From: a virus
IMG/VR virus record: IMGVR_UViG_3300031607_000012
Coordinates: 1 to 31,509 of that record
DNA length: 31,509 bases
Reading direction: 5' to 3' (one strand)
Below, piece after piece: positions 21,592 to 27,119 of this stretch (position 1 is its first letter; the number at the start of each line of letters is the position of its first letter). Below the pieces are notes generated by a model, which saw nothing but the letters and a program-made list of their open reading frames with translations, did not search any database and had not been told where the DNA came from. The position numbers and the translations under genes are program-made.

Positions 21592-22038
21592 TTACCCCAA
21601 TAGTGGTGAACTTGTTAAGTCAAACTCAAAAACACGCCCAACCTCTTTTGACGGGCCTAAGTTCCTGAATAATTGCCGGAAAGGCCGTGGCTTGCGGTTG
21701 GAGTCAACAGTCAACAGTCTATGACATTTATTAGCAGTAGCAAGCGTCACAATGGCTTCGATCATGTTTTCACGGGCTTTCGGGGCTTTTTGGGAATAGA
21801 AATGCTGCACAGTTGCCACCCCCTTTCCACTAAACGCCAGCACAGCCAGCACCTTGAACTGTTCATCTTCCCGGGTTACCAGCACGGCTGCGTTCGGCAG
21901 GGCCACTGCGTCGCGCACAGACTCGGCCCCTTGCTCGCCGGGACTAAACGCATGGTGCTCATACGCGCGCGTGACCAGCTCCTGTATAGCCGGGTTTTCC
22001 AGCGCTTTTGTGGTGGTCACTCGTAGTGTTTTGATCAT
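21592..22038 (-). CDS. GNAT-like protein in the virion operon
   Basis: A 148-aa protein with a probable acetyltransferase (GNAT)-like layout. A first helix (ENPAIQELVTRAYEHH) is followed by strands around AAVLVTRED and FKVLAVLAFSG, then the strand VATVQHFYSQ leading to a helix KARENMIEAIVTLATANKC, and RLLTVDSN with a late FRNLGPSKEVGRVFEF. The R/Q-x-x-G-x-G/A acetyl-CoA loop is not clear, so enzyme activity is uncertain. GNAT-like proteins of unknown role occur among internal-protein genes of podoviruses. It may have a structural or host-modifying function. The start has only a weak ribosome-binding site. Confidence 0.55.
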   Translation of the reverse strand: MIKTLRVTTTKALENPAIQELVTRAYEHHAFSPGEQGAESVRDAVALPNAAVLVTREDEQFKVLAVLAFSGKGVATVQHFYSQKAPKARENMIEAIVTLATANKCHRLLTVDSNRKPRPFRQLFRNLGPSKEVGRVFEFDLTSSPLLG

Positions 22039-22073: not shown

Positions 22074-23042
22074 TTAAACCGTTCTTTTTTCCGACTTAAT
22101 GACATGAACATACGGGGAAACTACTTCCGATACAGCCAAGTAGAGACCGTTAGGGCTAAAGTCAACACTAGTACCAAAGTAACCTAACTCTATAGTGTCC
22201 GCCACGAGAGACCAGTCAGAGGTATCTATAACACTAAAATAAGGAGTTTCTTCATGTGCAACAGCCAAATAGCTACCATCTGTGCTGAAATCCACATCCC
22301 TTATAGCTTCCTCTATAAGGGAAATACTAGCTATGTTCGTCCAGCCGGTTGTTTCAAGGACAGATATGTAGGGAGAAACAGAGTTAGTAACTACCAGCTT
22401 AGACCCATCTGGACTAAATTGCACAGCGGTGACAAAATCGGAAAAGTTAGGTATTCCCGCTAATTCTGACCAGTCAGTTGTATCTATTACTTTTAGATAA
22501 TAAGGTCCAAACCCAGCACTAAACGCCAAAAGAGTGCCTGCCGGGTTGAAACACACGTCACGGCATACTTCTGTAGCTGTGGCCGTATTTGAAAGTATTG
22601 ACCAGTCAGAGGTATCAAGTATAAATAAGGCGTTCTGATAAGCTACAGCGTGACCAAAAGCCAAATAATCTCCGTTGGGACTAAAATCTACAGCGTACGC
22701 CGCCGAAGTTCCTGAGATAGCAGGAGTAGTAATTTTAGACCAGTCAGAAGTATCATAAACTAATAAGTACGGGTATGAAGACCCAGCAAGCGCCATCATT
22801 GTGCCGTCTGGACTAAAAGATATATCTATTATACCTACACCAATGTAAAGGCTATCTACTACTAAACTCCAGTCGCTGGTGTCTATCACATTCAGAGTAC
22901 CATTAGAACCAGTCGCTAACAGAGTTGAATCATGGTTAAATTCAGCGCAAAAAGCGGCTTCTCCTACATTTGTTAGCCCTTGAACTAAGCCCCACGCACT
23001 ACCAGTCGCCACCCGAAGCATTTTGTTCATTAAAAAACTCAC
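22074..23042 (-). CDS. Seven-bladed WD40/YncE-like beta-propeller virion protein
   Basis: A 322-aa protein made almost wholly of seven repeats of about 43-46 residues. Each blade has a (V/A/S).FSPDG..LA strand pair and ends at (V/I)DTSDWS: DTSDW at residues 54, 97 and 143, DTTDW at 187, ETTGW at 230, DTSDW at 273, with W17 in the first blade. This is a WD40/lactonase-like propeller without visible catalytic residues, so binding is the likely role. Lying among tail genes, it may be an adhesin or tail decoration. The gene is more A/T-rich than its surroundings (22801-22860 has 22 G+C of 60, against 35 of 60 at 23281-23340), hinting at later acquisition. The start is GTG 23042 with AGGTGAT upstream; ATG 23030 is an alternative. 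Confidence 0.8.
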   Translation of the reverse strand: MSFLMNKMLRVATGSAWGLVQGLTNVGEAAFCAEFNHDSTLLATGSNGTLNVIDTSDWSLVVDSLYIGVGIIDISFSPDGTMMALAGSSYPYLLVYDTSDWSKITTPAISGTSAAYAVDFSPNGDYLAFGHAVAYQNALFILDTSDWSILSNTATATEVCRDVCFNPAGTLLAFSAGFGPYYLKVIDTTDWSELAGIPNFSDFVTAVQFSPDGSKLVVTNSVSPYISVLETTGWTNIASISLIEEAIRDVDFSTDGSYLAVAHEETPYFSVIDTSDWSLVADTIELGYFGTSVDFSPNGLYLAVSEVVSPYVHVIKSEKRTV

Positions 23043-23356
23043 GATGGATCACCTACGACTGCGCCGTACAGCGTGCTGCCAACTTTGAACAGCTCGACAA
23101 TAGACTCCCCGGTGGCCAGTGTAGGTGCGTCCCCGCCGACCCACAGTATCGTGGGCCAGGTCACTGCATAGCCCGCTGACGTTATAATCAGTGTCACGCT
23201 GTGCCCAGACGTAAAGCTCTCAGTGACTGTGCGGTTAGCACCCAAGGTCCAGGTCTGGATGCCCCCGTTTGCTGGGTCTAGGTCCACACTGGCCCCGTCT
23301 GTAATGGCGAATACAATTTCTGGTTCGCCCCGTCGCGCTAATAGATATTCAGCCAT
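23039..23356 (-). CDS. Small beta-rich tail-associated protein
   Basis: A 105-aa protein predicted to be mostly beta strand. Segments such as GGIQTWTLGANRTVTESF, HSVTLIITSAGYAVTWP and ILWVGGDAPTLATGESIVEL match a domain found in phage tail fibre and virion proteins (the WP.I.W.GG..P.L pattern followed by a short strand and YG). A structural, receptor-contacting or trimer-forming role is likely. It overlaps the 132-aa gene by 8 bp upstream and the propeller gene by 4 bp downstream, so the propeller is translationally coupled to it. Confidence 0.7.
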   Translation of the reverse strand: MAEYLLARRGEPEIVFAITDGASVDLDPANGGIQTWTLGANRTVTESFTSGHSVTLIITSAGYAVTWPTILWVGGDAPTLATGESIVELFKVGSTLYGAVVGDPS

Positions 23357-23747
23357 ACTGTGTGACCTCGGTGTAATAGCCGACAGTGCCGCGTCGCTCT
23401 ACCAGGCCCTGTTGGAAAAATAGTTGATAAATCTCGTTTTTGTAGTTTACACGGGTTCGCTCCGGGGCCAAAACTGGGCGAGAATTGACCCGGTTCCGAC
23501 TCACTTCAAACCCCAGCCTGCCGTCTCGCACGAACAACGTCACCACCCCGTTCTTACTGGGCATCGTAGGGCCGTAGTACGCCTGGTATGTATCACCACT
23601 AAACCCGGCTGGCAGGGGTGACACAATGCGCAGGTGTTCGTCAGCAGGGGCGCACATTAACGCCCAGACTTCCCCTGTACCCCGATCAGTCAACGCCATA
23701 GGGCGAAAACGTGGGGGTATGCGGGGTAGCATTTTTGTCCGTTTCAT
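23349..23747 (-). CDS. Hypothetical tail-region protein (132 aa)
   Basis: Not recognised. A basic N-terminus (MKRTKMLPRIPPRFRPM) precedes alternating strands (EVWALMCAPADEHLRIV; GVVTLFVRDGRLGFEV) and a C-terminal segment rich in Tyr (YKNEIYQLFF; GYYTEV). Probably a minor virion or tail-fibre-associated protein, from its position between small tail genes. It overlaps both neighbours (4 and 8 bp). Confidence 0.65.
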   Translation of the reverse strand: MKRTKMLPRIPPRFRPMALTDRGTGEVWALMCAPADEHLRIVSPLPAGFSGDTYQAYYGPTMPSKNGVVTLFVRDGRLGFEVSRNRVNSRPVLAPERTRVNYKNEIYQLFFQQGLVERRGTVGYYTEVTQYG

Positions 23748-24058
23748 CCGAGATTCACCCAGTTTGTCCCATCCGAGCCCCGGAACTTCTGCCCGGTGCT
23801 GCCATCGCTGACATAGATTATAGCGCCTTCATGGTCTGACGCCGCTGGTAAGGCTGCTATGACGACGCTCTGCAAAGGCAAGGGGGCTTTCATCGCCACG
23901 TCGCCATCTGTGTTCAACGAGCTGTTGATGCGGTATCCGTACTGCTGGAATAAGCGAATCAGCTGCCTGATCAGCTCGCTGCCCCATATCTGCAGGCCAC
24001 GAACGTCGTAGTTTTTGGGTGCAGGGAGCGCGGGGCGCTCTTCAACTGGTGCTGGCAT
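23744..24058 (-). CDS. Small tail-region protein (104 aa)
   Basis: Function unknown. I choose ATG 24058 (MPAPVEERPALPAPKNYDV), because the longer frame upstream reads as the other frame of the preceding gene. A helical part (IWGSELIRQLIRLFQQYGY) is followed by a C-terminal beta part: PLQSVVIAALPAASDHEGAI, then IYVSDGSTGQ and FRGSDGTNW. That last pattern (G.I.YVSDG..G....GSDGTNW) is common at the ends of phage tail-fibre and head-fibre proteins. A role in fibre attachment is plausible. It overlaps the 68-aa gene by 17 bp. Confidence 0.65.
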   Translation of the reverse strand: MPAPVEERPALPAPKNYDVRGLQIWGSELIRQLIRLFQQYGYRINSSLNTDGDVAMKAPLPLQSVVIAALPAASDHEGAIIYVSDGSTGQKFRGSDGTNWVNLG

Positions 24059-24248
24059 TCTCACACTCACAAGGCTGTTGCAACTGGGCCAACGTGCCCC
24101 GACGCATCTTATGGCAGTGTTGGCACGTTGTGTGCAGGTCATTTTGGGTAGCGAAGTTGGCGTCATAGACAGCCTTGGCCTTAGCGCTATCAGCACCTGC
24201 CTTGCGCTTCAACGCAGCGTCGATTGCTTCCCGACTAAAATCAGTCAT
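24042..24248 (-). CDS. Small Cys-rich zinc-finger-like protein
   Basis: A 68-aa protein with a helical N-terminal half (FSREAIDAALKRKAG, AKAKAVYDANFA) and a Cys cluster (TTCQHCHKM ... QQPCECE). The Cys and His residues in this small area could bind zinc. The start overlaps the 615-aa tail gene stop (ATGA), indicating coupled translation. The role is unknown, and a metal-binding accessory protein inside a tail operon is uncommon. Confidence 0.6.
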   Translation of the reverse strand: MTDFSREAIDAALKRKAGADSAKAKAVYDANFATQNDLHTTCQHCHKMRRGTLAQLQQPCECENASTS

Positions 24249-26092: not shown

Positions 26093-26126
26093 GGTTGTTA
26101 AACCCCTAGCCAGACGGACGTATACT

Positions 26127-27119
26127 TCATACTGTAAACTCCGCGTCACCGCCCAGGGTCCATGAAGATACATTTAGAGTATCACCAGTATCTTGGCCAG
26201 TATCCCCTGATATTTGTAAAACATCCCCAATAGAGACTGAAATAGATTGTGTGTCAGTCACTGCGCCAGTGACGTCGCTCACTGAAAATAAGATTGCCAA
26301 AACATTATTTTTAAACACTGATACAGTTGCATTGTCTGAGCTTGCAGATATTACCGATCTGACCGTTCCAGACGCTGTGATAATAACGCTTGGCCCAAAT
26401 TCAGTCCTGTCTGGGATCACCTTTAATACATCGTTACTGGCGTTATTGCCCTGCATTCTAGGTGCCACCCACCTAACAGTAGAAGACGCAGTAACTGTTT
26501 TACTTCCTATCCTAGCTGAAACCCAAGCATCTTCAGCAGCCCCTGTTTGAAACTTTTCAGCTCCTAGAGTACCAGTAGCTACTTTATCATTAGTTACAGC
26601 ATTATCGGCTACTTTATCATTAGTTACCGAGTTATCGGCCAGTTTGGCCGTTGTCACGAAACCATCCGCCATCTTGCCCCGGCCCGCCGCGTCCGCTGAT
26701 AGGAGGGCAGCCGCTAGTTTGGCCGTTGTAATGTAACCATCCGCCATCTTGGCGCGACCTGTGGCGTCAGCACTGAGTATGCCGTCCACGAGATTAGCGG
26801 TAAGCAAAACTATACCGGTAAAAGACACTACACCTGCGTTGGTCAGCTTAGTTTCGTTCCCGGCTGGGTCTTGGTAGAACAGCTCAATAACGCCCGAACC
26901 CACGTCTTTGGTGTAGAAGTGACCTTGGCCCGCTACCGCTGTTGGGGTAGTCTGAGCGAGTAGCTTCACGACTTCATGCTTGCCTATATCGCTATCGTCA
27001 GTCGCCCTATGATCGACACCAAAGTTCGTGACTACCGCAGCCCGCGCCGCCCGCGCGTTCTGCGGGTATTGCGAAACAATGTCGCCGTCTTCCGGGTTAC
27101 TTACGTCCCAATCAGCCAT
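26127..27119 (-). CDS. Tail fibre with repeated shaft and distinct tip domain
   Basis: A 330-aa probable receptor-binding fibre. Residues 1-95 are an N-terminal attachment region. The shaft follows, with SADATGRAKMADGYITTAKL (116-135) nearly repeated at 141-160, then ADNSVTNDKV and ADNAVTNDKV (161-180), patterns typical of collagen-like or beta-helical fibre shafts. Residues 195-330 are a Ser/Thr/Val-rich beta tip with no resemblance to the base. The composition changes sharply: 26281-26340 (tip) has 18 G+C of 60, while 27001-27060 (base) has 40 of 60. This suggests the tip was exchanged with another source. Host-range variation is the expected consequence. The stop is 34 bp before the next start. 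Confidence 0.78.
   Translation of the reverse strand: MADWDVSNPEDGDIVSQYPQNARAARAAVVTNFGVDHRATDDSDIGKHEVVKLLAQTTPTAVAGQGHFYTKDVGSGVIELFYQDPAGNETKLTNAGVVSFTGIVLLTANLVDGILSADATGRAKMADGYITTAKLAAALLSADAAGRGKMADGFVTTAKLADNSVTNDKVADNAVTNDKVATGTLGAEKFQTGAAEDAWVSARIGSKTVTASSTVRWVAPRMQGNNASNDVLKVIPDRTEFGPSVIITASGTVRSVISASSDNATVSVFKNNVLAILFSVSDVTGAVTDTQSISVSIGDVLQISGDTGQDTGDTLNVSSWTLGGDAEFTV
26579..26638 (-). repeat. Tandem 30-bp repeat in the fibre shaft
   Basis: The blocks 26579-26608 and 26609-26638 differ at 3 of 30 bases and encode the two ADN(S/A)VTNDKV units. Exactly 30 bp, so copies can change in number without a frameshift. It lies at the boundary between the G/C-rich base and the A/T-rich tip. 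Confidence 0.9.

Follow-up and report, generated by a model that had tools for sequence, protein, structure and literature searches.

A seven-bladed propeller encoded directly behind a short fibre-anchored tip gene: a probable swappable receptor-binding head of a phage

We consider it probable that a propeller gene in an IMG/VR virus record of 31,509 bases (the whole stretch analysed, hereafter the window) encodes a separate, swappable receptor-binding head that plugs non-covalently onto a virion-anchored socket, the product of the gene directly upstream, g105. On the minus strand, the gene order runs from the capsid through small genes, g229, the fibre-like g330, g642, g150 and g132 to g105 and the propeller, followed by a 148-aa gene, three internal-protein-like genes and the lysis genes. 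An earlier reading of the sequence alone had placed the propeller between small tail genes and internal-protein genes, which is right. The features discussed below are as follows.

21592..22038, minus strand: 148-aa gene, right boundary of the slot, conserved beside the internal-protein genes in relatives
22074..23042, minus strand: propeller gene (putative adhesin), 322 aa, GTG start, seven WD40-like blades at residues ~32-319
22995..23042, minus strand: candidate docking peptide MSFLMNKMLRVATGSA, the N-terminal segment of the propeller, in the top 2.1% of control ORF starts; pLDDT <50
23039..23042, minus strand: GTGA overlap of the propeller GTG start and the g105 TGA stop, offset -4; predicted translational coupling
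23039..23356, minus strand: g105, short putative adaptor made of a virion-anchor motif and a tip domain
23049..23054, minus strand: AGGTGA, Shine-Dalgarno-like, 6 bases ahead of the propeller GTG
23051..23302, minus strand: tip (putative socket) beta-domain of g105, residues 19-102; HMM E 2e-30; AlphaFold2 pLDDT 80, pTM 0.70
23333..23356, minus strand: g105 residues 1-8, MAEYLLAR, common to fibre N-termini (M[TA]E.LFAR) of L018, L024, L028, L029, L030 and L033
23349..23747, minus strand: g132, small tail gene preceding the fibre slot, with homologues in the same place in relatives (e.g. L042)
23744..24196, minus strand: g150, left boundary of the exchanged slot; its homologue is fused into ~370-aa proteins in L024, L030, L033 and L042

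The call of a seven-bladed propeller was borne out by each approach. A single-blade profile placed seven blades in register in the ORF (whole-ORF E 6e-104), and beta-propeller/WD40 models of Pfam matched it (EML_2 1.6e-35, WD40 6.8e-18). The AlphaFold2 model, predicted from the single sequence, has 26 strands (pLDDT 75, pTM 0.79) and resembles WD40 propellers in the PDB over ~290 residues (5yzv, E 7.7e-18). Blade profile, model and PDB matches agree on seven WD40-like repeats that measure ~43 aa and each form a four-stranded sheet. The DTSDWS blade ends noted earlier are exact in blades 1, 2, 3 and 6, while blade 4 carries the variant DTTDWS and blade 5 ETTGWT. Protein identity between blades is 19-41%, and a very recent blade amplification is therefore not the case. 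Blade 7 is probably closed by an N-terminal strand ('velcro'), as judged by eye from the fit of the N-terminal LRVATGSAWGLV to the missing blade-7 end, in a region (residues 1-29) that the model gives at pLDDT <50. A direct search with the propeller gave nothing close in viral contigs and only three weak relatives in phage records, so that a synthetic blade consensus was used for the scans described below. Among the nearest relatives found (36% identity) is the propeller of L048, a phage of 65% G+C, where one 1468-aa ORF (L048:1294-5700) holds a DTSDWS propeller and then many PAPA.L.L..PQ repeats. L056 was not accepted as a phage adhesin, being a STAND/WD40-like protein of cellular type.

We compared base composition across the window. 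The propeller gene has 42.7% G+C and a GC3 of 35.0%, while the other 29 genes measured lie at 50-59% and 45-71%, respectively, g105 having a GC3 of 59%. The gene is thus the clear A/T-rich outlier that the sequence-only reading had described, although the 37% quoted there, taken from a local sample of 60 bases, makes the contrast look larger than it is.

The same locus was then compared in 42 relatives found with the capsid protein, which was taken for synteny because a search with the nozzle-like g642 protein found zero loci. None of the 42 loci encodes a propeller. Between g642 and the internal-protein genes, L018, L024, L028, L033 and L042 instead carry fibre/spike-like proteins of 476-726 aa, further relatives that span the interval carry other proteins, and in L006, L026 and L027 the slot is empty, with g150 abutting the 148-aa gene. 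The large slot proteins start MTEFLFARL, MTEVLFARL, MTEHLFARL and similar, and the pattern M[TA]E[VYFHLI][LR][FL][AVL]R was found in 7 of the 8238 ORFs from all loci, namely six slot fibre genes and g105 of the window. Because g105 carries the N-terminus of this fibre family, g105 and the propeller together occupy the fibre slot; what had been described as an insertion in the operon is better put as replacement of the distal part of a fibre. Had every relative carried the gene with the composition of its neighbours, the sequence-only reading would by its own terms have been refuted; this was not the case. In L024, L033 and L042, moreover, an additional gene separates the fibre from the internal-protein genes; by eye it is lysozyme-like, and the window has no such gene.

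These findings bear on the three roles that had been offered for the propeller. The adhesin gains support from the tail-fibre slot of the relatives, from the position behind a fibre-anchored tip-domain gene and from the class of interchangeable, fibre-coupled proteins described below. A decoration of the tail survives solely in the sense of a receptor-binding head. The third option, a host-directed protein delivered with the ejection proteins, fails in that the 148-aa and internal-protein genes are conserved while the propeller slot is exchanged; we rejected an ejected or host-directed protein on the basis of the fibre-slot position. In its wider form, in which the propeller would be moron-like cargo (e.g. 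for superinfection exclusion or as a signalling decoy) that stands in the late operon by chance, this explanation agrees with the A/T-rich composition, the absence from relatives and the adjoining internal-protein genes. We nevertheless regard it as very unlikely, given that the start of the gene overlaps g105 in the fibre slot, that pairs of this kind recur in unrelated phages and gene orders, and that the PADLOC defence library gave no match to the propeller.

Beyond its N-terminus, g105 consists of a single domain of ~85 aa, SIQTWTL..NRTPT...VTWP...W.GG.APTL....ELWKVGSTLYGA.VGD. Pseudomonas phage POR1 and several viral contigs have the same domain at the end of a gene that immediately precedes a separate propeller gene. 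g105 itself matched no PHROG or Pfam family; seven relatives weakly match phrog_19200 'virion structural protein', and PHROG tail-fibre families were hit by long tip ORFs (L126, 1.5e-82; L205, 4e-69; L142, 5e-67). The AlphaFold2 model of g105, folded from an alignment that left out rows from annotated phage records, has structural matches to phage spike and tail proteins, including the N-terminal region of CBA120 TSP4 (7rej, Z 6.7) and T4 gp9 (Z 6.6); no gp10 row is among the matches listed, and a search of the PDB with the tip sequence returned nothing significant. Foldseek E values never fall below 0.001. Since just the first two matches reach Z 8, we take the predicted structure as support for a phage tail/spike domain, rather than as proof of function.

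We next asked how often a tip domain and a separate downstream protein occur together. Viral contigs were scanned from the propeller side, with the YPWSGSGFGTKY consensus, and from the tip side. The queries were consensus sequences that we wrote ourselves and the best 80 loci per scan were kept, so the frequencies describe that sample, the contigs of which are partly redundant. In the propeller-side scan, a tip ORF ended immediately upstream of a separate propeller ORF in 62 of 77 loci; 15 lacked an upstream tip ORF, and 6 more start too near the contig end. In the tip-side scan, 82 of 85 tip ORFs were followed by a coupled ORF, defined as one of at least 100 aa starting between -9 and +12 of the stop, compared to 618 of 1355 control ORFs (46%) in the same loci, with no more than 10 residues left after the tip domain. 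Across all tip ORFs, the commonest offsets between tip and partner were -1 (94) and -4 (33). The window shows the same layout, an ORF with a C-terminal tip domain and then, immediately coupled, a separate ORF. The arrangement was likewise found in phages POR1, CRP-1, S-CREM2, MW202701 and MW202710 and in four bacterial genomes. The pair is ORF75/76 in POR1 and gp42/gp41 in CRP-1, a Roseobacter phage.

Loci of the propeller-side scan contained no fusion of tip and propeller. This bears on the idea that a frameshift divides a single fibre protein into g105 and the propeller, whether through assembly error, mutation or a programmed shift. The two frames are one base apart, and a one-base change near 23040 could suffice to put them in a single frame; tip and partner, however, are separate in every pair examined, the Shine-Dalgarno-like AGGTGA precedes the propeller GTG, and by eye no slippery heptamer lies before the g105 stop, a TTTTTTA following it. 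We rejected a programmed frameshift fusion on these grounds, and a split gene of any origin is the least probable of the alternatives weighed here.

Few of the tip-side partners are propellers like that of the window; the remainder are different proteins. Deduplication left 121 partners, in 28-29 groups that share no detectable similarity beyond residue 25; the families include WD40-like and LVIVD propellers, Laminin_G_3 (LamG), F5/8 type C and DUF7483, which are typical binding folds. Complete propeller ORFs have 7, 14 or 21 blades in 70 of 85 cases. Partners of the DUF7483 type, in MW202710 and CRP-1, match C-terminal parts of phrog_19943 (a family of 1227-aa virion proteins) and phrog_24898 (a tail-fibre family), and such a domain therefore also exists covalently attached in fibres elsewhere. 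Pfam assigns DUF7483 to the partner at L224:4303-6264, and phrog_24898 'tail fiber protein' matches the partners of both L224 and L221 (L221:4276-6201), which suggests that DUF7483 is a phage adhesin domain.

The variety of partners is also what weighs against a tail-fibre assembly chaperone. Genes for the chaperones T4 gp38, Mu Tfa, V22 gp27 and Pam3 gp25 likewise lie directly downstream of the fibre (PMC7289586, PMC9608196), overlapping genes would suit co-folding, for which there is a chaperone precedent (PMC9608196), and a separate ORF could act on g105 before assembly. In those systems, in contrast, a recognisable chaperone would be expected to serve variable client tips, whereas here the variation lies in the downstream protein and the tip ahead of it is conserved, for which reason the chaperone fits less well. 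The downstream proteins belong to ~28 unrelated, binding-type families, some of which match covalent parts of virion proteins or fibres elsewhere; moreover, no helical trimerisation domain or matching family was found in Pfam/PHROG, and the propeller model is all-beta. A chaperone acting like T4 gp38, Mu Tfa or V22 gp27 is, in our judgement, unlikely.

Returning to a plugged adhesin, we examined where partners resemble each other. Partners often start ML..K(L/V/A)(R/K/Q)(G/A)A. A short form of this motif lies within the first 16 residues of 67 of 121 partners, compared to 81 of 1778 control ORFs, in a set (also used for the Mantel tests) that counts partners identical over their first 60 residues once and in which closely related sequences remain. 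With a docking PWM trained on non-propeller partners alone, 60% of the held-out propellers scored higher than the control 95th percentile, and the window propeller, with MNKMLRVATGSA, fell in the top 2.1% of controls, a moderate score. The docking motif is weak and present in about half of the partners. Between partners of different families, tip similarity was associated with similarity of the first 16 residues (Mantel rho 0.40, 0/500 permutations), in contrast to partner residues 36-75 (rho 0.07, 48/500 permutations). In pairs of loci such as L112/L135, L078/L067 and L119/L130, DNA identity is ~70-100% across the tip ORF and the first ~30 partner bases, and ~25% by 60 bases into the partner gene. 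Partner residues 1 to 10-15 therefore evolve with the tip, and the drop in identity between 30 and 60 bases puts the swap point just behind the first 10-15 residues. The pattern in these sequences is as expected if the peptide contacts the tip as plug and socket, although linkage of adjacent DNA would give the same. In 94 of 116 cases, the G+C content of the partner is lower than that of its own tip ORF (p 9e-15); A/T richness is thus a property of the partner class, of which the window propeller is a strong example.

The moderate score of the window peptide (top 2.1% of controls), together with the missing stalk of g105, would also suit a propeller that sits directly on the tail hub as the virion protein of this slot, its adjacency to g105 merely reflecting operon order. 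In one scan, however, the ORF directly ahead of the propeller is a tip ORF at 62 loci of many different gene contexts, which leaves direct attachment to the hub highly improbable.

The analysis drew throughout on sequences and predictions. Our preferred reading, the plugged receptor-binding head, would work as follows. The propeller would be the adhesin of the podovirus's second fibre, made as its own polypeptide. As a minimal adaptor, g105 would be anchored to the virion by its first residues, like the long fibres of the relatives, and its beta tip domain would act as the socket; g105 has no stalk, and its geometry differs from that of the long fibres. Translation of the propeller would follow that of g105 directly, by coupling at GTGA, and its N-terminal MNKMLRVATGSA segment would dock non-covalently on the socket, leaving the propeller to face outward and bind a molecule of the host surface. 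Because the docking peptide alone must match the socket, the remainder of the gene would be free to be swapped by recombination for any domain that carries a fitting peptide, and such replacement would account for the foreign base composition. A separate polypeptide, unlike a fusion, would also permit a fibre trimer to carry a single adhesin.

Two known arrangements offer precedents. The best reading is that the pair works like S16 gp37/gp38 or the conserved-peptide systems of K1-5 and KP32, although its sequence resembles none of these. In S16, a single gp38 adhesin caps the gp37 trimer (PMC6851490). As in S16/T2-type phages, where gp38 determines host range, is horizontally swapped and sits by its N-terminus on the fibre tip (PMC6851490, PMC12892980), a separate candidate adhesin gene stands directly downstream of the fibre gene, here with a GTGA overlap. 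In contrast, gp38 attaches through a three-helix bundle with tryptophans and binds through a polyglycine sandwich, whereas the window pair has a short peptide-like N-terminus and then a propeller, with a ~85-aa beta-domain as the putative socket; no S16-type glycine-rich motifs (polyglycine II sandwich) were found in the propeller sequence. The second receptor-binding proteins of K1-5, G7C and KP32 dock by a conserved peptide (PMC6872550, PMC13082707): an anchored adapter or first receptor-binding protein gives the docking domain, and the second carries a 7-29-aa conserved N-terminal peptide in front of an exchanged distal part. A short N-terminal peptide on unrelated distal domains is likewise seen for the present class, by motif and Mantel test, the peptide of the window being moderate. 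In these systems, RBP1 offers a T4gp10-like dock close to its N-terminus and the second protein is usually a depolymerase; in the present class, by contrast, the fibre ORF carries the putative socket as its final domain, the genes overlap and the partners are mainly propellers or lectin-like folds, that of the window being WD40-like. A gp10-like match to the tip domain was not found by sequence. Propellers of the phrog_19311/POR1 ORF76 type share the fold, and POR1 ORF76 is a separate ORF that overlaps (ATGA) a collagen-like fibre ORF ending in a tip-type domain; they differ in identity (23%) and blades (YKRSGD-type as opposed to DTSDWS in the window) and are functionally unannotated. Host-recognition metaviromic islands of marine phages (PMC3909814) are similar in that environmental phages have hypervariable neighbourhoods of tail-fibre and carbohydrate-binding-protein genes; in the parts of that report available to us, the variable unit is not resolved and no tip domain, docking peptide or coupled pair is reported.

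Most likely, the two-gene plug-and-socket arrangement recurs in many unrelated, mostly uncultured phages. A more far-reaching proposal, which we put forward tentatively as possible rather than probable, is that short-, long- and contractile-tailed phages share a standardised fibre socket, a small C-terminal tip domain open to any separately encoded adhesin whose N-terminal plug of ~10-15 residues matches it, and that whole adhesins (propellers, LamG, F5/8C, DUF7483 and others) pass between unrelated phages one gene at a time, the crossover falling just within the plug. We found no description of the tip/partner pairing in the literature on propellers as phage receptor-binding proteins, interchangeable adhesins and DUF7483, in a search that mostly covered papers outside subscription. 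No virion proteins vary more than the receptor-binding proteins, which makes those of uncultured phages difficult to identify. If the pairing holds true, the conserved tip domain would mark the next gene as an adhesin, whatever its fold, and environmental phage genomes could be surveyed systematically for receptor-binding proteins; phage propellers, usually annotated 'WD40 repeat, unknown function', would gain a testable role in host recognition.

Several loci merit separate mention. Two tip and partner pairs with unlike partners are present in each of L058, L064, L089, L091, L094, L095 and L109, which are natural multi-adhesin phages. The bacterial contigs with such a pair (L217-L220) come from Pseudomaricurvus, Rhodobacteraceae, Ottowia and Acidovorax Leaf78, and their pairs probably lie in prophages or phage-like particles; the Ottowia partner is an F5/8 type C (galactose-binding-like) domain. 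In the cultured cyanomyovirus Synechococcus phage S-CREM2 (L222), the pair gp115/gp116 lies beside baseplate wedge genes and is annotated hypothetical. The window itself has a second fibre-like gene, g330 (26127-27119, minus strand), with PHROG tail-fibre hits, VTNDKVADNAVTNDKVATG repeats and an A/T-rich stretch of its own (44-48% G+C at 26100-26700). Because the counterpart of g330 in L006 (11324-12190) has a tip-type domain at its end, this phage group may have two fibre systems.
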